Below are positions 1 to 57,385 of a DNA stretch of 57,385 nt, piece by piece; positions within the stretch are counted from its first letter, which is position 1; every line of letters starts with the position of its first letter. The stretch comes from a virus, in IMG/VR virus record IMGVR_UViG_3300030106_000856, positions 1-57,385 of that record; one strand, given 5' to 3'. The notes under the pieces are model-generated. The model was not told the DNA's origin. It was given only the letters and a program-made list of their open reading frames with translations, and made no database searches. Position numbers and translations under genes: made by a program.

Positions 1-98
1 AATATTTGTTAGCAAATTGCTAACACCAAGACTAGATAATTGCTTATCTAGTTTCGCCAAAATTTCATTGGCTCATCAGTTGGTTTATCTTAGATGTT
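1..98. repeat. Terminal direct repeat, left copy
   Basis: The first 98 bases are identical to 57287-57384; base 99 (G) differs from base 57385 (T). This is what an overlapping assembly of a circular or circularly permuted genome gives, with a unit length of about 57,286 bp. The repeat cuts through the intergenic region between the minus-strand genes at 85-393 and 56188-57258 and contains a whole hammerhead ribozyme. A true short terminal repeat cannot be excluded from sequence alone. Confidence 0.93.
25..84 (-). ncRNA. Hammerhead ribozyme HH2 (type I), between 85-393 and the MoxR gene
   Basis: Read on the minus strand, all hammerhead parts are present in order: stem I strand ACCAA (80-84), core CUGAUGA (73-79), stem II (56-72, GCCAA paired with UUGGC), GAA plus A15.1 (52-55), stem III (32-51, eight pairs closed by loop GCAA), cleavage triplet GUC (32-30) and stem I strand UUGGU (29-25). 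Stem I is open, so this is type I. The predicted cut lies between 30 and 29. The ribozyme begins directly after the TAA of the upstream gene (85-87), so that mRNA would end in the ribozyme's own stems. A downstream hairpin (7-25, UGUUAGCA with UGCUAACA) would then sit at the 5' end of the MoxR mRNA. The identical copy at 57311-57370 is the same locus. Confidence 0.92.
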
Positions 99-393
99 GG
101 GATAGTGAATTATAGTTATCATTAATAAACATATCGCATACTTCTACTTTCCTATCTAAGAACATTTTTTTAGACCCATATCCGCATCCAAAATGATATG
201 GACTAACAAGATTTTTTTCTTGTTTCCATTTTTGTTTTTTGGATTTCCAACGAGCAATTTCTAAAACATAGTGAACTGCTTTTTGCTTTTTGTTTGGTTG
301 TGCAACTTCACAAAAGTCAAAAACATATTGAGGAATATCCTCGTACTTCATTTCTAAAATTGCTGTAGCAAAGTCTATAAAAGTCGTTTTCAT
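85..393 (-). CDS. Hypothetical protein, 102 aa, first gene of the ribozyme operon
   Basis: I do not recognise a family. The start is the ATG at 391-393, which follows the SD hairpin at 402-415; an upstream in-frame extension would read through that SD and the ribozyme region. The protein is basic in the middle (a Lys/Trp/Gln-rich stretch near residues 47-60) and has three Cys. No signal peptide or membrane segment is visible. It is the first cistron of the minus-strand operon that continues across the contig junction into the MoxR ATPase gene. Its stop codon abuts hammerhead HH2, so cleavage would separate it from the ATPase message. Confidence 0.8.
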   Translation of the reverse strand: MKTTFIDFATAILEMKYEDIPQYVFDFCEVAQPNKKQKAVHYVLEIARWKSKKQKWKQEKNLVSPYHFGCGYGSKKMFLDRKVEVCDMFINDNYNSLSQHLR

Positions 394-401
394 AATCAAA
401 A

Positions 402-415
402 GACCCTCCAAGGTC
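402..415 (-). promoter_or_regulatory. Shine-Dalgarno hairpin, loop UUGGAG, for gene 85-393
   Basis: Minus strand: GACC, loop UUGGAG, GGUC, followed by the ATG after eight nt. The SD core GGAG is presented in a hexaloop. The stem is four pairs here and five in the sister elements. The loop is exactly complementary to the loop of the leader hairpin at 464-481. Confidence 0.7.
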
Positions 416-469
416 AGTTTCTTGCATCCCATAATTAGGATGCTCATCAGCTTGTTAATTCAAGGACTG
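415..469 (-). ncRNA. Divergent hammerhead-like ribozyme HH1 (type III), 5' leader of the operon
   Basis: Minus strand: stem III strand CAGU, triplet GUC (467-465), stem I CUUG/CAAG with a six-nt loop (464-451), core CUGAUGA (450-444), stem II GCAUCC/GGAUGC (443-424), then GAA and the stem III partner ACUG (418-415). It departs from consensus by two extra A residues (422-423) between stem II and GAA, and stem III is only four pairs, so activity is uncertain. The predicted cut lies between 465 and 464 and would release only the first ~18 nt of the transcript. It takes the same place relative to its gene as the five better ribozymes. Confidence 0.6.
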
Positions 470-481
470 TTGGAGCAGTCC
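464..481 (-). promoter_or_regulatory. Leader hairpin with anti-SD loop CUCCAA
   Basis: Minus strand: GGACUG, loop CUCCAA, CAGUCC, a perfect six-pair stem. The predicted transcription start lies at 480-482, so this hairpin would be the very 5' end of the operon RNA. Its hexaloop is the exact complement of the UUGGAG loops of the SD hairpins of six operon genes. Its 3' arm also forms stem III of HH1, so the hairpin and the folded ribozyme are alternative structures. Confidence 0.6.
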
Positions 482-486
482 CAAAA

Positions 487-516
487 GTTATATATCTTTA
501 AGTAAGTCCATATCAA
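487..516 (-). promoter_or_regulatory. Sigma70-like promoter for the ribozyme operon
   Basis: Minus strand: -35 TTGATA (511-516) and -10 TATAAC (487-492) with an 18-nt spacer, or TATATA (489-494) with 16 nt. Transcription would begin at about 480-482 in the GGG at the base of the leader hairpin. This is the only convincing promoter I see upstream of the first operon gene. Confidence 0.55.
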
Positions 517-519
517 TTT

Positions 520-870
520 TGTATCAATGGCAAAAAGATAATTTCCTTTTGGATTTATGAGTCTTGCTTCATCACTTTGTCACTTAGCTTTACACTCTCT
601 CACACTAGCCACTTTCTTAGGCGGATTTCAGATAGAGCTTCTCGGAGAACCTACTCTAACTTACTGCTAGAACCTCTTACCTTTAATCCTTTAGAGAACC
701 CATTGGGCGGTAGCTACAGTTTAGAGACATAATCGTTTTGGTCTGTAATGAAAAGTTTAATCTATCTTGCACATCATTTCAAACACTTTATTAATTATTT
801 ACCAGTTCATTATTTTTGCTATCGTTTTGTGAGCATTATATTTTCTCCATACATGAGATAAGATTTCAGT
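520..870. other. Intergenic region between the divergent ribozyme operon and terS
   Basis: No convincing gene is visible. The region 590-760 is less AT-rich than its surroundings and contains, on the minus strand, three GGTTCT-type segments and several short inverted repeats, but I could not fold it into a tRNA or a known RNA. One copy of TATTTACCAGT lies at 796-806. A weak plus-strand promoter for terS may lie at 816-842 (TTGCTA, then TATATT). Confidence 0.4.
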
Positions 871-1347
871 ATGAGCAAAGAAGAGAAACCAAAATTAAAA
901 GTAGTAAAACAAGATAAAGATTTAACGATTAAGCAACGCCAGTTTGTGGATGAAATTATCAAGGGAAAGTTAGGTAGTTATAAAGAAGCATATGCAAAGG
1001 TTTATGATGTTGAATTAACCAAGACTGGGAAGATACCAAAATGGGTAGAAGTCGAAGCAAGTCGTTTAGTCGCTAACCCTAAGATAGCACTAAGCATACA
1101 AAAGGCTATCCAAAGAAAAGAGCAGTCATCAGTTGCTACATCGCTAAGGACTAGGAACTATGTCATAGACCAACTTTATCGTGAGTCCAAAGAATCTGAT
1201 TCTGATTCAGCTAGGATTCGAGCATTGGAATTACTGGGTAAGAGCGTATCGTTATTTAGTGATGTCGTTGAAACCAAAGAAGCGAGAACAAGTGATGAAG
1301 TCGAGCGAGACATTGAAGAGCGTATTGAAGCATTACTTAATAAATAG
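871..1347 (+). CDS. terS: Terminase small subunit (TerS)
   Basis: 158 aa, the usual size for this family. An N-terminal helix-turn-helix-like region opens with LTIKQRQFVDE (about residues 18-28), followed by a SYKEAYAKVY segment and an A-RLV-NPKI motif (about 64-75), as in phage small terminase subunits that bind the packaging site. The C-terminus is acidic and coiled, fitting oligomerisation. It sits directly upstream of the large terminase gene, separated by an unusual 540-bp gap that may hold the packaging site. The SD is weak (GAGATAAG, about 10 nt before ATG). Confidence 0.85.
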   Translation: MSKEEKPKLKVVKQDKDLTIKQRQFVDEIIKGKLGSYKEAYAKVYDVELTKTGKIPKWVEVEASRLVANPKIALSIQKAIQRKEQSSVATSLRTRNYVIDQLYRESKESDSDSARIRALELLGKSVSLFSDVVETKEARTSDEVERDIEERIEALLNK

Positions 1348-1889: not shown

Positions 1890-3386
1890 ATGAGTAACCA
1901 AATATTAAGCCAAGTAAAGAACCTTTCTTTAGATGAAAAGAGAGAGTTACTAGGTTTATTGGATGAATTAGAGGAAGCAAAGGCTCGTGAGAAGTGTGCA
2001 GACGACTATATGCACTTTGTTAAAGAGATGTGGAGTGCTTTTATAGAGGGTCCGCATCATAAAATCATGGCTGATGCCTTTGAGCGTGTTGCTAATGGCG
2101 ATTTAAAGCGTTTAATTATCAATATGCCACCTCGACACACTAAATCCGAGTTCGCATCTTATCTTTTACCTGCTTGGTTCTTAGGAAGTAAGCCAGAAAA
2201 GAAGATAATTCAAACCGCACATACTGCAGAACTAGCTGTAGGCTTTGGTAGAAAGGTTAGAAACCTTGTGGGAAGCAAAGATTTTAAGCGTATATTCCCC
2301 AATGTTAGTTTGCAGTCGGATTCCAAAGCTGCGGGTCGTTGGAATACGAACAAAGGCGGTGAATATTTTGCGATTGGTGTAGGTGGTGCTGTTACTGGTA
2401 AAGGTGCAGACCTGCTTATCATTGATGACCCGCACTCAGAACAAGAAGGAGCTTCAGCAGACATCAATGTCTTTAATCGTACCTATGAATGGTACACATC
2501 TGGTCCTAGACAGCGTTTACAGCCTAATGGTGCAATCGTTGTAGTAATGACAAGGTGGCATAATAAAGACCTAACTGGACAAGTTGTAGATGCTAGTATA
2601 AAGCGTGGCGGAGCCGACCAATGGGAAGTTATAGAGCTACCTGCAATATTACCTTCTGGAAAGCCTTTATGGAGTGCTTTTTGGAAATTAGAAGAATTAG
2701 AAGCTTTAAGAGCTGAACTGCCTAATTCTAAGTGGATGGCTCAGTATCAACAAGACCCTACTTCTGAAGAAAGTGCTCTTGTTAAGCGAGAATGGTGGAG
2801 AACATGGGATGGTATAAATCCACCAGATTGTGAGTTTATCATTCAATCATGGGATACAGCCTTTCTTAAAACACAAAGAGCTGACTATTCAGCTTGTACC
2901 ACATGGGGAGTATTTTATAAAGAGAATGATGAAGGACTTGTTGCTCCACAACTAATACTACTAGATGCTTATAAAGAGCGTTTAGAATTCCCAGATTTAA
3001 AGAAAACAGCTTTAGAAAAGTACAATGCTTATAAGCCTGATGCTTTTATTGTAGAAGCTAAAGCAGCAGGGATGCCTCTTATATTTGAATTAAGAGCAAC
3101 TGGTATTCCTGTACAAGAATATACACCTAGTCGTGGTAATGACAAAATATCAAGAGTAAACGCTGTATCAGACCTATTTGCTTCAGGAGTTATTTGGGCA
3201 CCTGCAACTAGATGGGCAGAAGAAGTTATAGAAGAGTTTGCTGGATTTCCTAATATGGAACATGATGATTTAGTTGATAGCAGTACACAAGCATTATTAA
3301 GATTTAGGCAAGGTGGTTTTGTTCCTCTTGATTCAGATGAAGAAGATGAGCCACTAGAACACAATAGAACAGCAGATTATTACTAG
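1890..3386 (+). CDS. terL: Terminase large subunit (TerL), packaging ATPase/nuclease
   Basis: 498 aa, a full-length TerL. The ATPase half shows a Walker A-like PPRHTKSE (residues 80-87) and Walker B LLIIDDPHSE (about 174-183). The C-terminal RNase H-like nuclease shows SWDTAF (about 320-325) and the late acidic motif HDDLVDSS (about 457-464). It cuts concatemeric DNA and drives it into the prohead through the portal. The ATG has a good SD (AGGAGA, three nt upstream). The portal gene follows after nine nt. The PPRHTKSE type often belongs to headful packagers, which fits the apparent circular permutation. Confidence 0.96.
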   Translation: MSNQILSQVKNLSLDEKRELLGLLDELEEAKAREKCADDYMHFVKEMWSAFIEGPHHKIMADAFERVANGDLKRLIINMPPRHTKSEFASYLLPAWFLGSKPEKKIIQTAHTAELAVGFGRKVRNLVGSKDFKRIFPNVSLQSDSKAAGRWNTNKGGEYFAIGVGGAVTGKGADLLIIDDPHSEQEGASADINVFNRTYEWYTSGPRQRLQPNGAIVVVMTRWHNKDLTGQVVDASIKRGGADQWEVIELPAILPSGKPLWSAFWKLEELEALRAELPNSKWMAQYQQDPTSEESALVKREWWRTWDGINPPDCEFIIQSWDTAFLKTQRADYSACTTWGVFYKENDEGLVAPQLILLDAYKERLEFPDLKKTALEKYNAYKPDAFIVEAKAAGMPLIFELRATGIPVQEYTPSRGNDKISRVNAVSDLFASGVIWAPATRWAEEVIEEFAGFPNMEHDDLVDSSTQALLRFRQGGFVPLDSDEEDEPLEHNRTADYY

Positions 3387-3395
3387 GAGATTAAA

Positions 3396-5867
3396 TTGGC
3401 TATAGAAAAACAATACGAACCTGCTACGCCAATAGATGGTCTAGTAGAAATGGAACCAGAATCAGGTTTAGATATAGAAATAGAAACTACTGAAACTGAT
3501 GATGGTGGCATGATTATTGACTTTGACCCAAATTCATCACAAATGAATAATGCTGATTTTAACTCCAACTTAGTAGATTTTATAGATGAAGATGAATTAA
3601 CCTCTATAGGTAATGAGTTAATAAGTGCATTTCAAGCAGATAAAGATTCTAGGTCAGAATGGGAAGAAACCTATGTAAAAGGCTTAGACCAACTAGGTTT
3701 AAAGATAGAGGAAAGAACTACTCCTTGGAATGGAGCTTGTGGTGTATTTCATCCTATGTTAAGTGAAGCTGTAGTAAAGTTTCAATCACAGGCTATATCT
3801 GAGATATTTCCTGCTTCAGGTCCAGTAAGAACTAAAATAGTTGGTAATATTGATTCTGCTAAAGAAAAACAAAGTCAAAGAGTACAAGATTATCTTAATT
3901 ATCTTTTAACTTATGAAATGACTGAATACAGAAGTGAAACAGAAAAGATGTTATTTTCTTTACCACTTGCAGGTTCAGCATTTAGAAAAGTTTATTTTGA
4001 CCCAACATTAAATAGACCAAGCGGTATATTTGTACCTGCTGAAGATGTTGTAGTTAATTATGGTGCAAGTGATTTAGAAACTTGTGAAAGAGCTACTCAT
4101 GTAATGAAAAAGTCATCTAATGATATTAGAAAGATGCAAGTTAATGGATTTTATAGAGATATAGAATTACCAGATGCAACACCAACATCTTCTGATATTA
4201 CTAAAAAATATAATGAGATGACTGGTGAATCAGAAAGCTATAGCTATGATACAAGACATACTGTCTTAGAAATGCAGGTTGATTTAGATTTAAAAGGCTT
4301 TGAAGATAAAGATGCAAATGGTCAAGATACAGGAATAGCATTACCTTATGTAGTAACTATAGACCATCCTTCTGGAATTATTCTTAGTATTAGAAGAAAC
4401 TATTATGAAGATGACCCTGCTAAATTAAGAAGGATGCATTTTGTTCACTATCAATATCTACCAGGACTAGGGTTTTATGGCTTTGGATTAATACATATGA
4501 TTGGTGGATTAGCAAAATCTGCTACATCTATACTTAGACAATTAGTAGATGCAGGTACTTTAAGTAATTTACCTGGTGGTTTAAAAGCTAGAGGATTGCG
4601 TATAAAAGGAGACGATAGTCCCATTATGCCTGGAGAGTTTAGAGATGTAGATGTGCCAGGTGGTGCTATAAGAGATAATATTACTTTCTTACCTTATAAA
4701 GAGCCTTCAGGAACATTATTTTCTTTATTAGGCAATATAGTAGAAGAAGGTAAAAGGTTTGCAAGTATTGCAGATATGAAAACAGCAGACATGAATAGTC
4801 AAGCACCTGTAGGCACTACACTAGCATTACTAGAAAGAAACATGAAAGTAATGTCAGCAGTACAAGCTAGATTACATTCTTCTATGAAAAGAGAGTTTGA
4901 AATATTAGTTGGTGTAATTAAAGACTTTACAAATCCTGCTTATCCATATGAAGTAAAAGAAGGACAACAAATTAAATTACAAGATTTTGATGCTAGAGTA
5001 GATGTATTACCTGTATCAGACCCAAATGCTGCAACTATGGCACAAAGAATTATGCAGTATCAAGCAGCTATGCAATTAGCACAACAAGCACCACAACTAT
5101 ATGATTTAGGTCAACTACATAGACAAATGCTTGAAGTATTAGGCATTAAAGATGCAGAAACTATTATACCTCTACAAGATAAAGTACCACCAGTTGACCC
5201 AGTTACTGCAGTACAAAATATTATTAATGGTAAGCCTGTACAAGCATATGAGTTCCAAGACCATGAAGCTCATATCAATACATTAGCGGCTGCACAACAA
5301 GACCCAAATATACAAGCAAAAGTACAACAAAGTCCTAATGCACAAGTTATACAAAGTGCTGGTTCTGATTATATTATGCAACATTTATCATTACAGTTTA
5401 GAGACCAAGTTGAAAGAGAAATGGGTGTAGAGTTACCTCCAGTAGGTGAACCACTACCAGCAGATGTAGAAAAGAGATTATCTACACTTATTGCTGAAGC
5501 TGCTCAAAGAGTAGCAAGTACTAATGCTGCACAAGCAGAACAACAAAGAATACAACAGCAACAGCAAGACCCATTAATACAAATGAAAGAAAGAGAAGTT
5601 GCTATTAAAGAAGCTGAAGTTCAAAGAAAAACACAAGAAGGTCAAGCTAAGATACAACTAGATACTGTTAAAGCAATGAACAATAAAGAGCTAGAAGAAA
5701 AAAGAATTGAAGCTCAACAAGAAACAAGTGGTTTAAAAATAGGACAGCAAATTGCTAGTGATTTGCTAGATAGAGAAGAAAGAGCAGAACAAAAAGTATT
5801 AGATGATTATAAAACAGGTATTGACATTGCTAAAAATATAGTAGAAGATAGCAAATTGAATGAGTAA
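3396..5867 (+). CDS. Portal protein
   Basis: 823 aa. Assigned as portal from its position directly after TerL, its size and the overall pattern: an acidic N-terminus, a long conserved body (residues ~90-560) and a Gln-rich, strongly coiled C-terminus (about 690-823). The start is a TTG (3396-3398) with the SD AGGAGA six nt upstream; no ATG fits as well. The dodecameric portal is the DNA channel and terminase docking site. The gene overlaps the next small gene by eight bases, suggesting translational coupling. The long C-terminal helix may be a barrel like that of podovirus portals (inference). Confidence 0.88.
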   Translation: MAIEKQYEPATPIDGLVEMEPESGLDIEIETTETDDGGMIIDFDPNSSQMNNADFNSNLVDFIDEDELTSIGNELISAFQADKDSRSEWEETYVKGLDQLGLKIEERTTPWNGACGVFHPMLSEAVVKFQSQAISEIFPASGPVRTKIVGNIDSAKEKQSQRVQDYLNYLLTYEMTEYRSETEKMLFSLPLAGSAFRKVYFDPTLNRPSGIFVPAEDVVVNYGASDLETCERATHVMKKSSNDIRKMQVNGFYRDIELPDATPTSSDITKKYNEMTGESESYSYDTRHTVLEMQVDLDLKGFEDKDANGQDTGIALPYVVTIDHPSGIILSIRRNYYEDDPAKLRRMHFVHYQYLPGLGFYGFGLIHMIGGLAKSATSILRQLVDAGTLSNLPGGLKARGLRIKGDDSPIMPGEFRDVDVPGGAIRDNITFLPYKEPSGTLFSLLGNIVEEGKRFASIADMKTADMNSQAPVGTTLALLERNMKVMSAVQARLHSSMKREFEILVGVIKDFTNPAYPYEVKEGQQIKLQDFDARVDVLPVSDPNAATMAQRIMQYQAAMQLAQQAPQLYDLGQLHRQMLEVLGIKDAETIIPLQDKVPPVDPVTAVQNIINGKPVQAYEFQDHEAHINTLAAAQQDPNIQAKVQQSPNAQVIQSAGSDYIMQHLSLQFRDQVEREMGVELPPVGEPLPADVEKRLSTLIAEAAQRVASTNAAQAEQQRIQQQQQDPLIQMKEREVAIKEAEVQRKTQEGQAKIQLDTVKAMNNKELEEKRIEAQQETSGLKIGQQIASDLLDREERAEQKVLDDYKTGIDIAKNIVEDSKLNE

Positions 5868-48343: not shown

Positions 48344-50113
48344 ATGTATGTCAATAGTGAAATGGATAAAAGAGATTTTTTAAGTCATGTAAATAATCAG
48401 CCAAGGACAAGCGGTATGAAACTTGGTCAACATAAAATATCTTGTCATGTATGTCAAAACCAAAGAAGTAAAAACAAACAAGACAAACCTTTATCAGTAA
48501 ACATAGAAGCTGATAAGGTCATATATCATTGTCATCATTGCGGTATCAATGGTTTAGTTTCAAGGAGAGAGGATTTTAAAATGAAAGTAGTAAAACAAGA
48601 AGTAAAAAAACCAGTAGAAGTTCCAGAAAATATATCTAATGGTAAAGCTAGTGATTGGTTGCAGGAAAGAGGTATAAGTATTACAGCCTCCGAGACAGCA
48701 GGATGCATCCTGACGGAAAAAAAATATAAACCAGTCATAGGTTTTTCTTTCGTTAGCGATGGAGAGGTTGAAGCAGTTAAGTATAGAAGTGCAAATGGAA
48801 GCAAGAGTTTTTGGTGGGATGGGAACGCTCAAAAGCTGTGGGGTCAACAGGTTTATGATAGCAAATTGCCAACATTAAAAAGCACAATCATCATAACTGA
48901 GGGAGAAATGGACACACTAGCTATCAAAACAGCTTTTGAGGGTGTGATGAATGTAGATTGCTATTCTGTTCCCAATGGAGCTCCAAACAAGATTACTGAT
49001 AACAAGATAGACCCAAGCGAAGATGGTAGATTTAAGTATGTATGGAACGATAGGGATAAGTTTGAGAATGTTGAAAGGGTTATTCTTTGTACAGATGCAG
49101 ATGAAAACGGAAACATACTAGCAGATGAATTAGCTAGAAGATTAAATAAAGCTAGATGTTATAGAGTAGATAACCTAGACTGTAAAGATGCTAATGATGT
49201 TCTATTAAAACACGGAGCAGAAAAGCTAAGAGATGTCGTGCTAAATGCTGAGCCAATACCTTTACATGGTTTAAATAACCTAGACCATTATGCAGATGAG
49301 TTTCAAAGTTTATATGATAAAGGTATGCCAAGCGGTGTATCTACAGGATATGCAAGTGTTGATGAGATATTTACTTTATCTACAGGCAATTTAGTTGTGT
49401 GTACTGGTCATGCGGGGGATGGTAAATCAGCTTTCATAGACCAATTAGTGGTTAATGTCGCAAGGAACAACGGGTGGAAAACTTGTTTCTGTTCTTTTGA
49501 AAAGCCAGTTCAACTTCATGCAGTTCAGTTGTCTCAAATCCTTGTAGGTAAGCCATTCTTTGAGGGTACTAATATAAGAATGACCCAAGAAGAAAAAGAC
49601 TTTGCGGAGACTTGGATAAGAGAACACATACTATTTCAAGACTATCAAGATGGTGGGTTGCCAACAATAGAAGCTATCTTAGAAAAGGGAGCAAGTGCAG
49701 TTATGAGATATGGCATAAGAGTATTAGTCATAGACCCATTTAACTTTATACATACTGAACATACTGGATTAGAAACTGATATGGTTAGCGAAATGCTAAC
49801 AAAAGTGCAGTTATTCGCAAAGCAACATGATGTATTGGTGTTCTTTGTCGCACATCCTACAAAGCCTTTCATTAGGGATGGCAAAAAGAATGTTTGTACT
49901 GGTGTTGATGTAGCCAAATCTTATGCTTGGTTTAGTAAAGCTGATACTGGATTGACTGTTTATAGAGGAGAAGAGGGAGTTGAGATACATAACTGGAAAG
50001 CTAGATGGGGTTGGCAAGGTAAGTTAGGAAGTGTTAATATGTCCTTTAATCCAGTAAATGGGAGATACGCAGAAATTGAAGAAGTTGATGATAACTTTGA
50101 CTGGGAGTTCTGA
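48344..50113 (+). CDS. DNA primase-helicase (T7 gp4/Twinkle-like)
   Basis: 589 aa. A zinc ribbon with CHVCQNQ (about residue 34) and CHHCG (about 63); a Toprim domain with IITEGEMDTLA (~182-192) and ILCTDADENG (~246-255); and a RecA-like DnaB-type helicase with Walker A GHAGDGKS (355-362) and Walker B VLVIDPFN (~461-468). It primes and unwinds at the fork. No phage DNA polymerase was found, so it probably works with the host replicase. SD AGGAGGTAAG. Confidence 0.93.
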   Translation: MYVNSEMDKRDFLSHVNNQPRTSGMKLGQHKISCHVCQNQRSKNKQDKPLSVNIEADKVIYHCHHCGINGLVSRREDFKMKVVKQEVKKPVEVPENISNGKASDWLQERGISITASETAGCILTEKKYKPVIGFSFVSDGEVEAVKYRSANGSKSFWWDGNAQKLWGQQVYDSKLPTLKSTIIITEGEMDTLAIKTAFEGVMNVDCYSVPNGAPNKITDNKIDPSEDGRFKYVWNDRDKFENVERVILCTDADENGNILADELARRLNKARCYRVDNLDCKDANDVLLKHGAEKLRDVVLNAEPIPLHGLNNLDHYADEFQSLYDKGMPSGVSTGYASVDEIFTLSTGNLVVCTGHAGDGKSAFIDQLVVNVARNNGWKTCFCSFEKPVQLHAVQLSQILVGKPFFEGTNIRMTQEEKDFAETWIREHILFQDYQDGGLPTIEAILEKGASAVMRYGIRVLVIDPFNFIHTEHTGLETDMVSEMLTKVQLFAKQHDVLVFFVAHPTKPFIRDGKKNVCTGVDVAKSYAWFSKADTGLTVYRGEEGVEIHNWKARWGWQGKLGSVNMSFNPVNGRYAEIEEVDDNFDWEF

Positions 50114-50606
50114 AACATTACAGATTAATGATTTAGGCAGTCCATACTTACATCTACGAAACCAAGTTGCAATAACTAGAATTGGTAAAAGCAAGGTTGG
50201 AAGAGCAATCGTGTTCGACCAACATATCATAGATAAATCTTATTTAGATAACAAACTAACAGCACAACAACATAATGTATGCAATCGCTACTTGGAATTA
50301 ATATCAAAAAGCGGAGTTTTTCCACACAGTTCTGCAAATGGAAAAGAAATATTTACCAGTCATAGTTTTTCCAAGCCTTTGCCAAGGGCGGTCATGTTAT
50401 CGAGAGTTCAAAAAAGAATAGTGAGTGAGTGTGGGCATGAGAGAGAGAAGATTTTCTGGCGAATAATGGTTGACAATCCTACAGAAATTAACAAAACCAA
50501 GGAGTTAGTAATGCAAGAATGTTCTAATGCACTACTAACATACTGGTATCTTAATCAGAAAAATCCTGTTTCCTTGTTTCAGCAATCCCTTGCAAACCAA
50601 GTTTAG
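50088..50606 (+). CDS. Hypothetical protein, 172 aa, overlapping the primase-helicase end
   Basis: ATG 50088 (after GAAGAAG) is preferred; a frame opening at 50058 also exists. The gene overlaps the helicase end by 26 bases, and its 3' end overlaps the minus-strand RHH gene by 56. Basic, with ITRIGKSKVGRAIVFDQH (about residues 30-47) and helical PRAVMLSRVQKRIVSECGHE (about 98-117). No family recognised; replication context. A TATTTACCAGT copy (50350-50360) occurs inside it. Confidence 0.65.
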   Translation: MITLTGSSETLQINDLGSPYLHLRNQVAITRIGKSKVGRAIVFDQHIIDKSYLDNKLTAQQHNVCNRYLELISKSGVFPHSSANGKEIFTSHSFSKPLPRAVMLSRVQKRIVSECGHEREKIFWRIMVDNPTEINKTKELVMQECSNALLTYWYLNQKNPVSLFQQSLANQV

Positions 50607-50814
50607 TATCGTAGTTATCGCTATTGATAGTTCCGCTAAATATAGCTTTACCCTCTTGTTCAGCAGTATCTTCTTCTACAGTAAGTCCTTTCTCATCTGC
50701 CAAACTATGTATCATGTGAATAATTTGTTTGTTGAGTGAGCGACTTTCTTTCTTAGCTAGAGAATGTGCCAATTCATAGGTTTCTTCTGAACATCTAATG
50801 AATAGACTTTTCAT
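50551..50814 (-). CDS. Ribbon-helix-helix (Arc/MetJ-type) DNA-binding protein
   Basis: 87 aa. The N-terminal strand KSLFIRC, then helix EETYELAHSLAKKE, turn SRSLNKQ and helix IIHMIHSLADEKG fit a ribbon-helix-helix domain (residues ~2-40). The C-terminal half is acidic. ATG 50814 is chosen because AAGGA lies eight nt upstream. RHH proteins bind palindromic operators as dimers, so it is a candidate regulator of the dyad clusters here. It overlaps the upstream gene by 20 bases and the plus-strand gene by 56. Confidence 0.7.
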   Translation of the reverse strand: MKSLFIRCSEETYELAHSLAKKESRSLNKQIIHMIHSLADEKGLTVEEDTAEQEGKAIFSGTINSDNYDTKLGLQGIAETRKQDFSD

Positions 50815-51109
50815 GTTTATCATCCTTATAAATTATCTGCGGACTGTCTTGCACTTCTGCAATAGCAACACTTTCCCTACCTACTTGATAATACCTATCT
50901 TCTTCTAATTGCTTGATAGCACTTTCGATTAACCATTCGTTAGACATAATCAAAGGGTCATCTAAAAGAGATATGGCAAAAGCAAGAGCGTTTAGTTCAG
51001 TCTCAAATATCCATACGAAATGTCGCCATTTAGCACTAGATTTAGTTGAGTGAACATTACTTGGCTCGGGTATATCTAAGTGATATGTGTGTCTTATTAC
51101 CGCATACAT
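50795..51109 (-). CDS. Hypothetical protein, 104 aa, predicted leaderless
   Basis: Aromatic-rich N-terminus (MYAVIRHTYHLDIPEP), a WRHFVWIFETELNALAFAIS segment (about residues 28-47) and an acidic end. No SD precedes the ATG, which lies nine bases from the -10 box of promoter P2, so the mRNA is predicted to be nearly leaderless. Function unknown; co-transcribed with the RHH gene. Confidence 0.68.
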   Translation of the reverse strand: MYAVIRHTYHLDIPEPSNVHSTKSSAKWRHFVWIFETELNALAFAISLLDDPLIMSNEWLIESAIKQLEEDRYYQVGRESVAIAEVQDSPQIIYKDDKHEKSIH

Positions 51110-51117
51110 AAGCTACT

Positions 51118-51147
51118 ATTATAATGCAAAATGCTATCAAAGTGAAA
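51118..51147 (-). promoter_or_regulatory. Promoter P2, near-identical to P1
   Basis: Minus strand: TTTCACTTTGATAGCA, three variable bases, then TGCATTATAAT; -10 TATAAT at 51118-51123. It differs from P1 (17544-17573) only in those three bases between the blocks. It drives the 104-aa and RHH genes. Confidence 0.7.
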
Positions 51148-51154
51148 TACATAT

Positions 51155-51170
51155 TGTTCCACATGGAACA
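51155..51170. promoter_or_regulatory. parS-like inverted repeat
   Basis: TGTTCCACATGGAACA: seven-base arms TGTTCCA/TGGAACA around CA. The bacterial parS consensus is TGTTTCACGTGAAACA. It lies seven bases upstream of the -35 region of P2. It may be an operator or a site for host ParB; no parB is in the window. Confidence 0.5.
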
Positions 51171-51375
51171 TTTACCCTACTGCTGTATTATTAAACACCA
51201 CAGGTTGTACAACACAGCCGTAGGATTTTATATAAATATTTACCAGTCTATTGTTTTAACTAAGGAGCTAGTGGGTTCCAGCTAAAAAAAATATTTACCA
51301 GTCAATTTTTTCTGATGGAACTGAGAGGTGTCGTTTGAAACTATAAGGACAACTATCACTAGACTATCACTTGAA

Positions 51376-51412
51376 GAAAAAAAAAGGGAAGCAGTCTTTT
51401 CGACTGCCTCCC
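51376..51412 (-). terminator. Rho-independent terminator (minus) with no gene in front
   Basis: Minus strand: GGGAGGCAGTC, loop GAAAA, GACTGCTTCCC, then T9. Eleven-position stem with one mismatch. No convincing minus-strand gene lies between it and the terminator at 51692, so it may end an untranslated RNA from the origin region. Confidence 0.85.
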
Positions 51413-51502
51413 TACCTTGGAGGTAATATAGTAAATGAACTTACATTCTATATTTCATGTTGGTAATCACAATATAATATAAAAGATAGCATATTGCAAG
51501 AG

Positions 51503-51534
51503 TTATACACAACTTTTCCACAGATTTATCCACA
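51503..51534 (+). promoter_or_regulatory. Three DnaA boxes in tandem
   Basis: TTATACACA (51503), TTTTCCACA (51514) and TTATCCACA (51526): all fit TTWTNCACA, in the same direction, with starts 11 and 12 bases apart, about one helical turn each. This suggests host DnaA loading at a phage origin. Confidence 0.75.
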
Positions 51535-51691
51535 GCCAAAAAACCAGTAAATATATATAATTTACAGCATATTCAATCATGTGTTCATGTCCTCAAATTT
51601 GACACCACGCAACACCAGAAAAAACAATATACCAGTAAATATTTTTTATTATCACCTGACCACGCTGTTCCATATCCTCTTTTTTTAGACC

Positions 51692-51734
51692 AAAAAAAAA
51701 GGCGGGACACCACCTTTTACAGTAGCATCCCGCC
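51692..51734 (-). terminator. Rho-independent terminator of the ribozyme operon
   Basis: Minus strand: GGCGGGA ... TCCCGCC followed by T9. It starts seven bases after the stop codon of the last operon gene (51741-51893). Confidence 0.93.
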
Positions 51735-51740
51735 TTAATT

Positions 51741-51893
51741 TTATTCTTCAGTTTCTTCTAAATGATGAATTAAAGCATATAATCCCGCCTTTACTCCGCT
51801 ATGTTCAGCTTTAGTATGGCTATCATTTACCCATTCATCATCTGCAATAATATCTTCTGCGATATTTTTAATTCTATCTAAGTCGATATTCAT
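51741..51893 (-). CDS. Small acidic protein, 50 aa, last gene of the ribozyme operon
   Basis: MNIDLDRIKNIAEDIIADDE starts an acidic helical protein ending in a Glu-rich tail (HHLEETEE). Its ATG overlaps the upstream stop (ATGA), so translation is coupled. It is directly followed by the operon terminator. No family recognised. Confidence 0.7.
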   Translation of the reverse strand: MNIDLDRIKNIAEDIIADDEWVNDSHTKAEHSGVKAGLYALIHHLEETEE

Positions 51894-52159
51894 TCTTGTA
51901 CCTCAACTTCTATTATTTGATTATCACTTGTAAATCCAAGATGTTTTGGAAAGGGTAAATTCATATCCGCCCTTTCTTTGTATAAAACATCTTGCACTTT
52001 GTGATTAATCGAAACCAAAGTATTAAAATATTTAACTAGAGATAAATCAACATCTGATTTTTCATCTAATTGCCTATTAATCTTTGTATAGATTTCGTTG
52101 CAAGTTCCTATGTTTACTTTCAAAGTAAATTCTAACAATTCTCTATTAGTCATTTTCAA
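51890..52159 (-). CDS. Hypothetical helical protein, 89 aa
   Basis: Frame MKMTNRELLEFTLKVNIGTC..., helical to residue ~65 and ending in acidic VEVQE. It overlaps the upstream gene by 14 bases and the downstream gene by four. No ribozyme separates these last three cistrons. Function unknown. Confidence 0.7.
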   Translation of the reverse strand: MKMTNRELLEFTLKVNIGTCNEIYTKINRQLDEKSDVDLSLVKYFNTLVSINHKVQDVLYKERADMNLPFPKHLGFTSDNQIIEVEVQE

Positions 52160-52478
52160 ATTCTCCAGTTATATCAACTTGACAATCATCGCCATATTCT
52201 GTCCCTTTAAAGACACCCCATATTTTGATTTTGTTAAGAAGTTCATCATCAGTAAATCTCTCATCAGACCATTCAACATATGCAGTTAAGTTATTGAATG
52301 TATCTAAAGAATGTCCCTCTTTTTTTCTTGTTGATTTTACTAAATCATAACAATCACATTCTAAATAAACACTTCTAACTTCTTCATCAGTAAGTTTTAC
52401 ATTAGATGTAATTTGATAATGCCTAGAATCTTGGGAATATTCCTCAATGTCATAAACATATTCATTTTCATTTTTCAT
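52146..52478 (-). CDS. Hypothetical acidic protein, 110 aa
   Basis: Start at ATG 52478, six nt from the SD hairpin 52485-52500; a longer reading would run through the ribozyme. Acidic with many Tyr and Asp (DIEEYSQDSRHYQITSNVKL, about residues 9-28), LTDEEVRSVYLECDCYDLVK and a C-terminal VDITGEFEND. Looks like a small beta-alpha protein. First gene behind ribozyme HH6. Confidence 0.75.
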   Translation of the reverse strand: MKNENEYVYDIEEYSQDSRHYQITSNVKLTDEEVRSVYLECDCYDLVKSTRKKEGHSLDTFNNLTAYVEWSDERFTDDELLNKIKIWGVFKGTEYGDDCQVDITGEFEND

Positions 52479-52484
52479 AATAAT

Positions 52485-52500
52485 TACCCCTCCAAGGGCA
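52485..52500 (-). promoter_or_regulatory. Shine-Dalgarno hairpin, loop UUGGAG, for gene 52146-52478
   Basis: Minus strand: UGCCC, loop UUGGAG, GGGUA (pairs U-A, G-U, then three C-G). ATG follows after six nt. Confidence 0.72.
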
Positions 52501-52512
52501 GTTAAATTTAAT

Positions 52513-52573
52513 AAAACTGTTTCATGCCTTTTGGCAATCATCAGTAGAAAATACGCATTTTCTATACAGTTTT
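52513..52573 (-). ncRNA. Hammerhead ribozyme HH6 (type III), upstream of gene 52146-52478
   Basis: Minus strand: stem III AAAACUGU/ACAGUUUU (52566-52573 with 52513-52520, eight pairs), triplet GUA, stem I UAGAAAAU/AUUUUCUA with loop GCGU (52545-52564), core CUGAUGA (52538-52544), stem II UGCC/GGCA with loop AAAA and a U-U step (52524-52537), then GAA (52521-52523). The cut is predicted between 52565 and 52564. It would leave the ribozyme on the 5' end of the downstream mRNA. Confidence 0.92.
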
Positions 52574-52722
52574 GCAAAAATTGACTTCGTGAGACTTCGC
52601 CTATTGCAAATTTAAGAAGAGGGTAAGGGCATAAGATACCCCAAAAAACCCCCCTCTTAAATCAGCTCAAAAAATTACCATCTCGGTTTGAGATGATAAA
52701 ATATTTACCAGTCTATTATTTT
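52574..52722. other. Structured spacer between gene 52723-53505 and HH6
   Basis: No gene. Holds the terminator-like hairpin CATCTC/GAGATG with T6 (52669-52695, minus strand) and a TATTTACCAGT copy (52702-52712). A longer inverted repeat, ATTTAAG-AGAGGG with CCCTCTTAAAT (52610-52623 and 52652-52662), encloses a short G/C hairpin. A direct repeat GACTTCG lies at 52583 and 52593. These could form the 3' end of the upstream mRNA. Confidence 0.5.
52669..52695 (-). terminator. Weak terminator-like hairpin after gene 52723-53505
   Basis: Minus strand: CATCTC, loop AAACC, GAGATG, then GTAATTTTTT. Six pairs and a U tract a few bases later; probably partial, since HH6 and three genes lie beyond. Confidence 0.5.
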
Positions 52723-53505
52723 CTAGGCTTTTTTCTTCCTTGGCTTAGGATAGATTTCAGAAGTTCCAAATAACAACTGTTTCTCTTCCGCAGTTCCAAA
52801 GTGAACAATAGCCTTAAATAATCTCTTGGCGATAGACTGAATACACAAATTCCTAAGTTCTCCAGTCTTGGTATATCGTGGTTGCAATCTAACAATTTCT
52901 TTAATCGTAGGTTGCTTTTCCTCATCCCTCCACAATGCCAAGGCTTGATTGTGAAGAGTAGCAAACATACCACTTTTAAATCCGCAAAAAAGATTATCCT
53001 CTTGTAATACAGAATATCCTTTTATTGACATTCCTAAAATATCTAAATCAGAATATCTATATTTGCCTAGGCTAGTCCAATCAATCTCAAATTCATTCGA
53101 TTGATTTTTACTAACGCAATCTTGCATAGCGGATTTCATTTTAGTATTGACATCAGAATTAGTCTTTAAGACTTTCTTAATAGTCTTGTTTATTGGTTTA
53201 GTTTTTTTAGTAAAAACATCAACAACATTAGCACTAATAACTGGCTTAGAATTAGAATTTAATCCTAGTTCATTAGCCATATCTTGCAAAAGTTTCCCTT
53301 TGCTTTCATGCTCATTAAGTAATCCTTTGACTACCAACTTTTCTAAATCTTTTTCAGATTGAATAATTTCTGCTAAGACATAAAAAAGTTGTTTGCCAAC
53401 ACCAATACCATATTTAGTCTCTAAGTTTCCTAACCAAATTTTCGTTTCATCAGAAACTACAGTAGAAACTGGAGACCCCGTTAGTTTATTATGATTATTT
53501 TGCAT
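52723..53505 (-). CDS. Hypothetical protein, 260 aa, of the ribozyme operon
   Basis: ATG 53505 follows the SD hairpin 53513-53528. Residues 1-60 are helical, 65-130 Lys/Asn-rich and probably flexible, and 150-250 a compact domain with LDILGMSIKGYSVLQEDNLF and GFKSGMFATLHNQALALWRD. Ends in a Lys/Pro-rich tail (PKPRKKKA). No family recognised. Its fixed place beside the MoxR/VWA genes suggests a shared function. Confidence 0.75.
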   Translation of the reverse strand: MQNNHNKLTGSPVSTVVSDETKIWLGNLETKYGIGVGKQLFYVLAEIIQSEKDLEKLVVKGLLNEHESKGKLLQDMANELGLNSNSKPVISANVVDVFTKKTKPINKTIKKVLKTNSDVNTKMKSAMQDCVSKNQSNEFEIDWTSLGKYRYSDLDILGMSIKGYSVLQEDNLFCGFKSGMFATLHNQALALWRDEEKQPTIKEIVRLQPRYTKTGELRNLCIQSIAKRLFKAIVHFGTAEEKQLLFGTSEIYPKPRKKKA

Positions 53506-53512
53506 AATAAAT

Positions 53513-53528
53513 TGTCCCTCCAAGGACA
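53513..53528 (-). promoter_or_regulatory. Shine-Dalgarno hairpin, loop UUGGAG, for gene 52723-53505
   Basis: Minus strand: UGUCC, loop UUGGAG, GGACA: five Watson-Crick pairs. Confidence 0.75.
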
Positions 53529-53541
53529 GTTAAGGTTAAAA

Positions 53542-53596
53542 TTCTGATTTCATGCTTTTGCAATCATCAGCCAAGATACACATCTTGATATCAGAA
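53542..53596 (-). ncRNA. Hammerhead ribozyme HH5 (type III), upstream of gene 52723-53505
   Basis: Minus strand: stem III UUCUGAU/AUCAGAA (53590-53596 with 53542-53548), triplet AUA (cut after 53589), stem I UCAAGAU/AUCUUGG with loop GUGU (53571-53588), core CUGAUGA (53564-53570), short stem II UGC/GCA with loop AAAA and a U-U step (53552-53563), then GAA (53549-53551). Same plan as HH6 with different paired bases. Confidence 0.87.
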
Positions 53597-53605
53597 ATTT
53601 GATGC

Positions 53606-53643
53606 GGGGAGAAAAAATATTTACTGGTAAATAATTTTCCCCC
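53606..53643 (-). promoter_or_regulatory. 3'-end hairpin after the metallopeptidase/VWA gene
   Basis: Minus strand: GGGGGAAAA pairs with TTTTTTCTCCCC around the dyad TATTTACCAGTAAATA (53618-53633). It lies between the VWA-gene stop (53661) and ribozyme HH5, so it would cap the 3' end of the upstream mRNA after cleavage. Confidence 0.65.
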
Positions 53644-53660
53644 ACACCTATTTGTTGCGA

Positions 53661-54989
53661 TTAAAACCTAGAGAAATCGATAGCAACTTTTTCCCCAAAA
53701 GGGAGTTCATCGCTATAGTAATTTTCTCCGCCACTTAACGCCCATATGACTGGGACATTAGGCTCAACTTCTTCAGAACAATATCCGTAAGCATCCGTAA
53801 AGTAGATAAACGCTATCACTTCATCCGTGTTATCAGTATAGTCATTGAATAAGTTAAAAGGCGGGTCAAAACGAGTTCCACCGCCACCACGGGCAACGAG
53901 TTCCAACTCTTCACAATCTAAGTCGTACTCATCCCACCATTCGCCTTTAGAATTTTTGCGGACAGAAGTATCGCAATAGCAAACTCTAATTTTATTGATA
54001 CCGCAATCTTCCGCAAGGGCATTGATTTCAGTAGCAAAAACATTGAGTTCCTCTTGGCATACGCTTCCGCTTGTATCTATAGCAATCGCAAGTTCGCCAC
54101 CTTGTGGCTCTTTGTCTTTGCTTGGCAAGTTAATCCCCCTCCAAGAATGTCTTTTATTCAATCTTGTCCATGTGGGGTTAGTAGCAATAGCACTTTGCAA
54201 TAAGTCTCGCATCACATCTACCCAGTCAACATAACTTTCATTAAGCTGTTTCATGGCATCGCCAAAACCTCCGCATCCCTCATCGCTCATACCTTCTAAT
54301 TTGTCAGCCATTGCGATAGTTCTTTGCAACTGTTCTTGTAAATCAGCCATTTCACTAGGAGATAATTCTTTGCCCTCATCATTCGTTGGCATCCATACTT
54401 CGCCACTTGGTAATTCAACATCAGCAAGTTTCTCTTCGAGACTTTTACCTTGTCCATTTCCAGTAGCATCAGCATCGACATCTTCGTTAGTATCAGCATC
54501 AGCATCCGCATCCGCATCGCTATCAGAATTGTCATCGTTAGAGTTAGACTTTAAATCTTCAAGGGCATCGTTTAAAGCATCTTCATCATTCGATAAAGTT
54601 CTATAAACTTGCTCCGCACTTTGTCCGTGATACTTCCTATCAAGTAGTCCCTCTTCTGGTAATTGCATATGTAAATCGTATGCTATCCAAGAGTTAATTA
54701 CATAGTCAGTAGCTATGTTCCAAAGTTCGTGATTTCTATTCCCTTTTCTAAGAGGATGTTCCCAAATAACATGACTAGCTTCGTGTACTAATACCGCTTG
54801 GATTTCCTCATCTGTTATTGATTTAACAAATTCATCATTCCAATAAATATTAATGCCGTCAGTAGCCATTGTTTGGCATCGCTCATTGTTCTCAATCAAA
54901 GTAAGTTTTAATAACATGGTTGCCATTCCAACATTACCTTTCATAAGTTTTGCTCTAGCTTTTATTATTCGCTCTTCACTATTCAACAT
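53661..54989 (-). CDS. Metallopeptidase-like/VWA protein (DUF2201 type)
   Basis: 442 aa from ATG 54989. The N-terminal part has a zinc-peptidase motif HEASH (69-73) in AVLVHEASHVIWEH and a following ELWNIATDYVIN segment. The middle is an Asp/Ala acidic linker (about 155-180). The C-terminal half is a VWA-like domain with the MIDAS motif IDTSGS (~300). Such proteins pair with MoxR AAA ATPases, whose gene lies two cistrons upstream; the VWA part usually recruits a target. The target here is unknown. Confidence 0.85.
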   Translation of the reverse strand: MLNSEERIIKARAKLMKGNVGMATMLLKLTLIENNERCQTMATDGINIYWNDEFVKSITDEEIQAVLVHEASHVIWEHPLRKGNRNHELWNIATDYVINSWIAYDLHMQLPEEGLLDRKYHGQSAEQVYRTLSNDEDALNDALEDLKSNSNDDNSDSDADADADADTNEDVDADATGNGQGKSLEEKLADVELPSGEVWMPTNDEGKELSPSEMADLQEQLQRTIAMADKLEGMSDEGCGGFGDAMKQLNESYVDWVDVMRDLLQSAIATNPTWTRLNKRHSWRGINLPSKDKEPQGGELAIAIDTSGSVCQEELNVFATEINALAEDCGINKIRVCYCDTSVRKNSKGEWWDEYDLDCEELELVARGGGGTRFDPPFNLFNDYTDNTDEVIAFIYFTDAYGYCSEEVEPNVPVIWALSGGENYYSDELPFGEKVAIDFSRF

Positions 54990-54993
54990 AATT

Positions 54994-55009
54994 AATTCCT
55001 CCAAGAATT
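54994..55009 (-). promoter_or_regulatory. Shine-Dalgarno hairpin, loop UUGGAG, for the VWA gene
   Basis: Minus strand: AAUUC, loop UUGGAG, GAAUU: five pairs. Identical to the element before the MoxR gene. Confidence 0.72.
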
Positions 55010-55021
55010 TTATTTATGAGT

Positions 55022-55076
55022 TTCTGTTTCGACTGTTTTCAGTCATCATCAGTTGGGACTACATCCCAAGACAGAA
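55022..55076 (-). ncRNA. Hammerhead ribozyme HH4 (type III), upstream of the VWA gene
   Basis: Minus strand: stem III UUCUGU/ACAGAA (55071-55076 with 55022-55027), triplet GUC (cut after 55070), stem I UUGGGA/UCCCAA with loop UGUAG (55053-55069), core CUGAUGA (55046-55052), one extra U (55045), stem II GACUG/CAGUC with loop AAAA (55031-55044), then GAA (55028-55030). The extra U after A9 is the only departure from consensus. Confidence 0.88.
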
Positions 55077-55116
55077 GCGAGAAAAAAATATTTACTGGTA
55101 AATAGTTTTTCCCCGC
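55077..55116 (-). promoter_or_regulatory. 3'-end hairpin after gene 55128-56093
   Basis: Minus strand: GCGGGGAAAAA pairs with TTTTTTCTCGC (with G-U pairs) around the dyad TATTTACCAGTAAATA (55089-55104). It starts 11 bases after the stop codon and directly precedes HH4. Confidence 0.65.
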
Positions 55117-55127
55117 AACTCATCAGC

Positions 55128-56100: not shown

Positions 56101-56116
56101 AGACCCTCCAAAGTCT
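56101..56116 (-). promoter_or_regulatory. Shine-Dalgarno hairpin, loop UUGGAG, for gene 55128-56093
   Basis: Minus strand: AGACU, loop UUGGAG, GGUCU: four Watson-Crick pairs and one U-G. Confidence 0.72.
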
Positions 56117-56123
56117 GTTTATT

Positions 56124-56187
56124 ACCAAGACTAGATAGCAAAAATGCTATCTAGTTTCGCCAAAATTTCATTGGCTCATCAGTCGGT
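56124..56187 (-). ncRNA. Hammerhead ribozyme HH3 (type I), between MoxR and gene 55128-56093
   Basis: Minus strand: stem I ACCGA/UUGGU (56183-56187 with 56124-56128), core CUGAUGA (56176-56182), stem II identical to HH2 (56159-56175), GAA and A15.1 (56155-56158), stem III CUAGAUAGCA/UGCUAUCUAG (56131-56154, ten pairs), triplet GUC (56131-56129). Cut predicted between 56129 and 56128. Compared with HH2, stem I keeps pairing through an A-U to G-U change, and stem III is longer with other bases near the loop. It begins directly after the MoxR stop codon. Confidence 0.93.
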
Positions 56188-57258
56188 TTATATTTCTAAG
56201 TCTTGGTTATCAACTTTGAATTTAGAATATACATCGCACTCTTTGAGTTCGCTTCTAAGTCCAGTAATTTTTCTAACAAAGAATATAGAAAATTCTACAG
56301 TCGAAAATTGCTTCACATAATTTAAAGCATTTTCAAAGTAGTCATATATGTTTTTGTCATCCGCTTGTGCAATCGCTGTAGTTAGAGCAATCGTAGTCGC
56401 ATAACAAAGACCCGCTTCATCAATCAATTCTACTTCATCGCCTTTACATATTTTTGATATGTTTGGCACATCATTTTGAAGTGAAATAAAATTCATCAAT
56501 TCAATGGCACACTCTTGACCAACATCGCCCTCGAAGAGTTTTTGTCTCAACTCTTTAGGCGGGTTAGTTTTTAGTGTATCGCTTAACCTTACCCAACTTC
56601 TTGGACTTGGTTGCGGGTCATTACACTTTGGGTCAAAGTTCCAAAGTAGCTGTGGCATAAATCTAATTAAACCTTGAACATTCAAGTCAACATCGTTGCT
56701 ATCAGCCCAGTCTAACCAGTCGTTTACATCGTGAGTAAACTGAATAGCGGTAGTCCTATCTTGACAATGTCTAAGGACTTTATTCGCTCCGCTTCTATCA
56801 GTATGTCTATTACCCGCTAGGACAATTTTCCACCCACTAGGAAAAACATAATCGCCAATTTTTCGCTCATCGTTTTTTCCTTTTGGGTCGAGTAATTGAC
56901 CTATCGTTGCTTGGACTGAAGAATGTGCTTGTGCAAATTCATCCAAGAAAAATAGACCCTCGCCACTCTTAGGCAAATTACCTAAAAATGCTTTCTTTTG
57001 TTCCCCCGTATCTTCATCTATATAAGGGAGACCGCCTAAGTCGATACTTTCAACTAATCCTAAACGAAAAGAGATAAATCCAAATTCATCTTCTTTTGGC
57101 TTCGTGTCATCAGTTAAAGTTCTACCATTCGCAAGTTCCTCCGCAATCTCTTTAACGATAGCGGATTTACCAACACCAGTACCACCAATTAAGAATGGAA
57201 TATTACTTCCTTTCAAAATATGTAGGCATGATTTTTTTGCTTCACTAGGTTTAAACAT
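56188..57258 (-). CDS. MoxR-type AAA+ ATPase (CobS/RavA-like)
   Basis: 356 aa from ATG 57258, after the SD hairpin. Walker A GGTGVGKS (25-32), Walker B GLFFLDEFAQA (~100-110), sensor-1 ILAGNRHTD (about 145-155) and a DRTTAIQF arginine region. MoxR ATPases are chaperone-like and usually act with a VWA protein, coded here at 53661-54989. Cyanophage CobS genes are related. Hammerhead ribozymes lie on both sides of the gene. The biological target in the infected cell is unknown. Confidence 0.9.
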   Translation of the reverse strand: MFKPSEAKKSCLHILKGSNIPFLIGGTGVGKSAIVKEIAEELANGRTLTDDTKPKEDEFGFISFRLGLVESIDLGGLPYIDEDTGEQKKAFLGNLPKSGEGLFFLDEFAQAHSSVQATIGQLLDPKGKNDERKIGDYVFPSGWKIVLAGNRHTDRSGANKVLRHCQDRTTAIQFTHDVNDWLDWADSNDVDLNVQGLIRFMPQLLWNFDPKCNDPQPSPRSWVRLSDTLKTNPPKELRQKLFEGDVGQECAIELMNFISLQNDVPNISKICKGDEVELIDEAGLCYATTIALTTAIAQADDKNIYDYFENALNYVKQFSTVEFSIFFVRKITGLRSELKECDVYSKFKVDNQDLEI

Positions 57259-57262
57259 AATT

Positions 57263-57278
57263 AATTCCTCCAAGAATT
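57263..57278 (-). promoter_or_regulatory. Shine-Dalgarno hairpin, loop UUGGAG, for the MoxR gene
   Basis: Minus strand: AAUUC, loop UUGGAG, GAAUU, then ATG after four nt. Confidence 0.72.
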
Positions 57279-57286
57279 TTAAGTTT

Positions 57287-57384
57287 AATATTTGTTAGCA
57301 AATTGCTAACACCAAGACTAGATAATTGCTTATCTAGTTTCGCCAAAATTTCATTGGCTCATCAGTTGGTTTATCTTAGATGTT
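57287..57384. repeat. Terminal direct repeat, right copy
   Basis: Identical to bases 1-98. The last base of the window (57385, T) does not match base 99 (G). Confidence 0.93.
57311..57370 (-). ncRNA. Hammerhead ribozyme HH2, right-end copy
   Basis: Same sequence as 25-84, present twice only because the contig ends overlap. In the circular genome it lies between gene 85-393 and the MoxR gene, with its cut 58 bases upstream of the MoxR ATG. Confidence 0.92.
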
Positions 57385-57385
57385 T

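Follow-up and report, generated by a model that had tools for sequence, protein, structure and literature searches.

Kissing hexaloops are familiar from TAR/TAR* and from ColE1 RNAI/RNAII. Among ribozymes, the type III hammerhead of bacteria and phages is the closest described system (Perreault et al. 2011, PMC3088659), and bacterial and prophage loci with several hammerheads have been described (PMC3088659). What such hammerheads do in bacteria and phages is treated as an open question in published accounts (PMC6155905, PMC3088659). Wieland and Hartig (2008, as described in PMC5052635) engineered a hammerhead riboswitch that masks the Shine-Dalgarno (SD) sequence, and twister versions carry SD and anti-SD in P1 or P3 (PMC5052635). 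As far as that account goes, these engineered systems hold SD and anti-SD in a ribozyme stem, self-cleavage frees the SD, and control is by an aptamer.

The phage module analysed here is predicted to work with the same elements. Unlike its artificial counterparts, it is natural, has no known ligand, and comes with a leader hairpin that competes and with a non-coding RNA upstream. It shares with the type III hammerhead the CUGANGA and GAA core, the A15.1-U16.1 pair, the GUC triplet, three covarying stems, the phage setting and the occurrence of several hammerheads per locus (PMC3088659). It differs in that AA always separates stem II from GAA, that A6 is often followed by an extra A, that stem III has 3–5 bp and is extended by SD pairing, that loop I AAUUAA is conserved, and that Rfam models do not match it. 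We found no report of a natural hammerhead with an SD in a stem or an anti-SD, or of the AA insertion, in the open-access literature, which makes for a weak absence. In more than 100 related modules the predicted cut site is tied to the following gene's ribosome-binding site, which offers a concrete, testable role for a hammerhead. The module would be a natural counterpart of the engineered SD-masking ribozyme, and phages could use it to part a structured RNA from an mRNA.

Results

The phage operon and relatives of its first module

The window, by which we mean the whole 57,385-nt stretch analysed, is a phage record (IMG/VR virus record IMGVR_UViG_3300030106_000856; 33.6% G+C). Its ends (1-99 and 57287-57385) repeat each other over 98-99 bases, consistent with a circular or terminally redundant genome, and a minus-strand operon spans their junction (Table 1). 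This operon comprises a 102-aa gene, an AAA ATPase, a DUF3150 protein, a metallopeptidase/VWA protein (DUF2201) and smaller genes. Each of its first six genes is preceded by a hammerhead-like core and has its SD within the loop (UUGGAG) of a short hairpin; HH1 is the first of these six cores, ahead of the 102-aa gene. The window holds 41 occurrences of TTGGAG versus 26 expected, an excess that, taken by itself, is weak evidence for an anti-SD match. A CsrA-like protein might conceivably bind the GGA of the SD hairpin loops.

Table 1. Predicted and annotated features of the window
Feature	Position	Strand	Remarks
First operon gene, behind HH1 module	85..393	-	102 aa, no family match
SD hairpin of 102-aa gene, GACC-UUGGAG-GGUC	402..415	-	loop 411-406
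Core GAA and stem III 3' strand	415..421	-	ACUG 418-415 pairs with 469-466
AA insertion between stem II and GAA	422..423	-	invariant in HH1-type modules
Stem II GCAUCC/GGAUGC	424..443	-	
Core CUGAUGA	444..450	-	
Stem I CUUG/CAAG	451..464	-	conserved loop AAUUAA
Predicted hammerhead cut	464..465	-	C465 (C17 of GUC) / C464
Leader hairpin GACUG-CUCCAA-CAGUC	465..480	-	3' arm doubles as stem III strand
Anti-SD hexaloop CUCCAA	470..475	-	
Predicted structured non-coding RNA, ~280 nt, upstream of cut	465..747	-	no ORF of at least 60 aa, no Rfam match
Long-range helix, 3' arm CUUUUGG	481..487	-	ends directly before leader hairpin
Long-range helix, 5' arm CCAAAAG	546..552	-	
Hairpin at 5' end of upstream RNA, AGAC-(CAAAACGAUUAU)-GUCU	725..744	-	
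Predicted promoter TTGAAA-17-TAAACT	754..782	-	position kept in relatives
Terminase small subunit	871-1347		
Terminase large subunit domain	1890-3386		
Portal	3396-5867		
Primase/helicase	48344-50113		
SD hairpin UGCCC-UUGGAG-GGGUA	52485..52500	-	loop 52495-52490
SD hairpin UGUCC-UUGGAG-GGACA	53513..53528	-	loop 53523-53518
SD hairpin AAUUC-UUGGAG-GAAUU	54994..55009	-	loop 55004-54999
SD hairpin AGACU-UUGGAG-GGUCU	56101..56116	-	loop 56111-56106
AAA ATPase gene	56188-57258	-	
SD hairpin of AAA ATPase gene, AAUUC-UUGGAG-GAAUU	57263..57278	-	loop 57273-57268

Searches of IMG/VR contigs with the ATPase, the leader and two core patterns that leave the leader free yielded at least 124 distinct modules related to HH1. 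Such modules occur in many uncultivated phages, mostly marine, and the genes downstream of them differ between phages. In bacterial and archaeal genomes (257 Gb) there were five pattern matches, all of them chance sequences lacking GUC or AAGAAAC; hence, the core pattern is specific to viral contigs. Neither the leader nor the 102-aa gene was matched by blastn in named phages.

Predicted transcript start and upstream RNA

A preliminary description of this DNA had placed the transcript start at 478-486, directly at the leader hairpin, and had expected cleavage to free an 18-nt RNA. The CUUUUGG immediately 5' of the hairpin (487-481) turns out to belong to a covarying helix. Its counterparts in relatives, the seven bases ahead of the leader hairpin, pair with a strand that lies 60-110 nt farther upstream (native 6.2 bp versus 4.5 with swapped arms, p=0.0001), as in GCAAAAG/CUUUUGC (L013), CUCAAGA/UCUUGAG (L057), CUCUAAG/CUUAGAG (L084), UCCAAGG/CCUUGGA (L129) and CUCAAAG/CUUUGAG (L227). 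Of 21 relatives, 15 have a promoter-like site (score at least 9/12) about 300 nt upstream, and none has one just before the leader. The promoter proposed earlier, TTGATA/TATATA before the leader, was rejected, as no -35/-10 pair of at least 9/12 stands there in any of the 21, in a scan that demanded T at -10 position 6 and so excluded TATATA. Given a covarying helix that reaches up to the leader hairpin and a conserved promoter about 300 nt upstream, transcription very probably starts near 747 and not at 478-486. Cleavage would then free a structured RNA of about 280 nt, of which the leader is most likely the 3' end, and an 18-nt RNA is not expected.

The hairpin at the 5' end of this RNA also covaries in relatives (AGAC/GUCU, AGUC/GACU, AGCC/GGCU). 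ARAGORN found no tRNA or tmRNA, so by that test the upstream RNA is not a tmRNA; nothing supports its identity as a group I intron, RNase P or GOLLD. The ~280-nt RNA precedes the module in at least 33 module sequences, and unrelated RNAs occupy the same place in other contigs.

The leader hairpin and its anti-SD loop

The minus strand at 481-464 reads GGACUG-CUCCAA-CAGUCC, as had been described. Only the 5-bp GACUG/CAGUC part (480-476/469-465) is kept in relatives; a sixth pair, G481-C464, could form only at the expense of stem I (C464-G451), to which C464 belongs after the cut, and of the upstream helix. The loop CUCCAA is exactly complementary to the UUGGAG loop of each of the six SD hairpins, again in agreement with the preliminary description, and the hairpin adjoins the predicted cut of HH1. 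Conservation in related contigs, suggested then as a check, is seen here: in 84 of the 124 modules listed, CUCC lies in the loop of a hairpin (at least 4 bp) that ends at the cut or beside it. When the leaders of related contigs are grouped into 28 independent clusters, 11 of these have a hairpin (at least 4 bp, CUCC in the loop) that adjoins the cut (500 shuffles: mean 0.11 clusters, maximum 2). The anti-SD-loop hairpins have 22 distinct stems, all of them fully paired, versus 62% paired when arms are swapped. Among the stems are GACUG/CAGUC, GACUA/UAGUC, GACUU/AAGUC, GACUC/GAGUC, GACAC/GUGUC, GACAGU/ACUGUC, GACAAU/AUUGUC and ACCCAC/GUGGGU. Since the 5' arm of the leader lies outside the hammerhead, this covariation supports the hairpin itself.

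One could suppose that the hairpin is mainly a cap that protects the 3' end of the cut upstream RNA against 3' exonucleases and holds this RNA and the ribozyme apart, and that the anti-SD loop is minor. The hairpin does follow directly on the upstream RNA's covarying helix, its end coincides with the cut, its 22 stems covary, and other intergenic regions of the operon also have a hairpin before the hammerhead. However, a cap explains neither the retention of CUCC despite changing stems (11/28 clusters versus 0.1 expected) nor leaders such as that of L137, which have no stable hairpin and yet are a perfect complement of the SD. We therefore regard the cap as an unlikely main function.

Predicted pairing of the leader with the SD

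The longest Watson-Crick match between a leader and its own SD averages 5.18 bp over the 28 clusters, compared with 3.88 bp for shuffled leaders (maximum 4.25 of 200) and 4.80 bp for swapped partners (p=0.028). Own SDs also match better than other SDs of the same contig (5.67 versus 5.40, p=0.034). Specificity for the own partner is statistically modest because GGAG is common to nearly all SDs. The slightly better own-SD fit is what pairing in cis predicts, and trans pairing is compatible with it. Individual cases, with matches specific to the module's own SD, are more informative: leader CUCCGU with SD ACGGAG (L051), ACUCCAA with UUGGAGU, an SD that lies outside any hairpin (L007), and UCCUCCU with AGGAGGA (L230). 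SD and anti-SD sit on opposite sides of the predicted cut and are able to pair. In four contigs (L137, L211, L228, L235) stem III UUCCUCCUCG/CGAGGAGGAA runs unbroken through the whole SD, which supports the earlier proposal that the short stem III can be extended through the gene's own SD. About one quarter of the 28 leader clusters lack an anti-SD (e.g. L047, L061, L068, L139), usually with a stem III of 4-6 bp; an anti-SD is therefore not essential to the ribozyme.

The preliminary description had also proposed control of translation by kissing loops, in cis or in trans. Comparison of the sequences suggests that cis pairing of leader and SD is conserved, whereas exact loop-loop kissing is not. 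The complementarity kept across relatives is not loop-exact: many leaders have the loop CCUCCA, with 5 nt in common with the UUGGAG SD loop, AUGGAG SDs stand opposite several CUCCAA leaders, the SD hairpin is missing from L007-type modules, and the L137 type forms a continuous helix. The locus resembles TAR/TAR* and ColE1 RNAI/RNAII in that two hairpin loops with complementary 6-nt sequences are present in the window. It differs from them in that relatives do not keep the loops exactly complementary and that a contact in trans is hypothetical. Two observations had been named in advance as speaking against the proposal. A transcript start outside 478-486 is strongly inferred here, and independent variation of the two loops is seen in part.

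Control in trans, possible but without specific support, can be stated more fully: the released RNA of ~280 nt, with its 3' anti-SD loop, would repress several phage or host mRNAs through loop-loop or loop-SD pairing. Loops of six nucleotides are capable of kissing, as in TAR/TAR*, CUCCAA matches all six SD loops, and leaders are able to pair with most other SDs on their own contigs. Yet the fit is slightly better to the own SD than to the rest, modules of the CCUCCA and L007 types no longer have exactly complementary loops, and no 18-nt RNA is expected. On balance, trans repression appears quite unlikely as the main role.

The hammerhead-like core

The CUGANGA core, the GAA and the A15.1-U16.1 pair are present in the window and in all aligned modules, and G16.2-C15.2 and U16.1-A15.1 show no variation (39 of 39). 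Retrieval of the modules relied in part on core strings, but not on GUC or stem III. The cleavage triplet, which the two core-pattern searches did not impose, is GUC in 122 of the 124 modules listed and GUU in two. Among the modules listed, stem I is always paired, and stem II pairs fully in all of 16 arm types except one that occurs once. Stems I, II and III covary in 39 diverse modules (95% of cells paired versus 76% shuffled; covariation score 0.515 versus 0.160 shuffled, slid controls ≤0.11). Stem III is open, as in a type III hammerhead, and short, with 3-5 pairs of its own, and is only 86% paired over five positions.

A hammerhead is expected to have GAA directly after stem II, with no core insertion; in HH1-type modules AA intervenes. 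It was found (as AAGAAAC) in 90 of 91 modules retrieved without requiring it and is visible by eye in the remaining one, where stem II has no clean arm. In 29 of the 124 modules listed, including L006, L015, L019, L023 and L027, A6 of the core is followed by an additional A (CUGAAUGA or CUGAACGA); insertion at this place is reported to reduce activity (PMC3088659). Because of these insertions, we call the HH1 type a hammerhead-like variant, with the core, triplet and stems of a hammerhead and a cleavage predicted from its sequence. Rfam searches of the window and of 400-900, at gathering scores and with E up to 5, gave no hammerhead match at HH1. In 14 related loci Rfam matched only the other, type II hammerheads of L211. 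Together, the AA before GAAAC and the conserved loop I AAUUAA possibly mark a distinct hammerhead variant missed by Rfam. A conserved AA insertion would widen the known range of hammerhead cores, and current RNA-family models miss the AA variant.

These insertions, with AA in all modules and an extra A in some, and the failure of Rfam to recognise HH1 would fit a module that no longer cleaves, whose leader, hammerhead-like scaffold and SD hairpin would trade pairs as a switch without catalysis. Such a switch would have no need of C or U as H17, however, and GUC or GUU is present in all 124 modules listed; CUGANGA, GAA and A15.1-U16.1 are conserved as well. Loss of catalysis thus seems improbable. 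Kissing loops alone were dropped as the main model since loop exactness is not conserved.

Discussion

We propose, with a probability of roughly one half, that HH1 and its relatives are cis-acting, hammerhead-like self-cleaving modules lying downstream of a structured non-coding RNA and ahead of an operon's first gene, in which stem III is extended by SD:anti-SD pairing and cutting detaches the anti-SD. Cutting and the start of translation are probably linked. The proposal builds on what the aligned sequences conserve, namely the helices, the core, the GUC, the hairpin, the anti-SD and its complementarity to the SD. From these, a likely order of events may be reconstructed. Stem III, with 3-5 pairs of its own, would be extended by the leader anti-SD CUCCAA and the gene's SD UUGGAG; the SD would thus form the outer part of a short stem III, in competition with the leader hairpin. 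The SD hairpin (402..415) and stem III plus SD:anti-SD are mutually exclusive, as they share G415, and forced folding places two exclusive structures within a few kcal/mol of each other in most representatives. In the first fold, leader hairpin and SD hairpin would both form, stem III would be broken, the ribozyme off and the SD in a loop. In the second, the hammerhead would form, the SD would be masked, and a cut after GUC could occur. Such a cut would detach the anti-SD from the mRNA. The upstream product could close its own 3' end as the GACUG-CUCCAA-CAGUC hairpin, and the mRNA product would start with a 5'-OH and stem I and expose the SD. Cleavage and ribosome binding would in this way be competitors, and the cut would part the upstream RNA from the mRNA. 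The two cut products are still predicted to co-fold with mildly favourable energy; hence, release of the SD is not assured and is the weakest step.

A bolder version of this proposal is possible, if doubtful: the modules may be a natural family of translation-gated ribozymes, in which the SD completes the catalytic fold and cutting happens only when no ribosome is on the SD. The same cut would free a structured phage RNA with a 3' anti-SD loop that may act in trans, and the core would be a previously undescribed hammerhead variant with an obligatory AA.

Further predicted ribozymes and repeats in the operon

The minus strand has further cores, one per operon gene, at 25-98 (repeated at 57311-57385), 56124-56213, ~55020-55075, 53540-53600 and 52515-52575. 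The RAGATH-1 hammerhead model (RF03152) matches weakly at 25-98, 56124-56213 and 57311-57374 (27-28 bits, far below its gathering score of 56), HH1 itself being unmatched. Relatives such as L005 and L006-L014 retain further operon cores with altered stems, even of swapped types; the core before the DUF3150 gene is of type I in the window and of type III in L005. An extra CUGAUGAG at 55126 (minus strand) lies directly 3' of the DUF3150 gene and upstream of the hammerhead at 55052, with no evident GAAA partner. Repeated ACCAGUAAAUAUUU / ACUGGUAAAUAUUU motifs occur at 50300-55100 of the window (minus strand), several of them in long intergenic hairpins just before hammerheads. In L211 (4028-5285, minus strand), four Rfam type II hammerheads follow the HH1-type module, apparently ahead of genes with GAGGAGG SDs, and this contig is apparently a second phage lineage carrying a ribozyme series.
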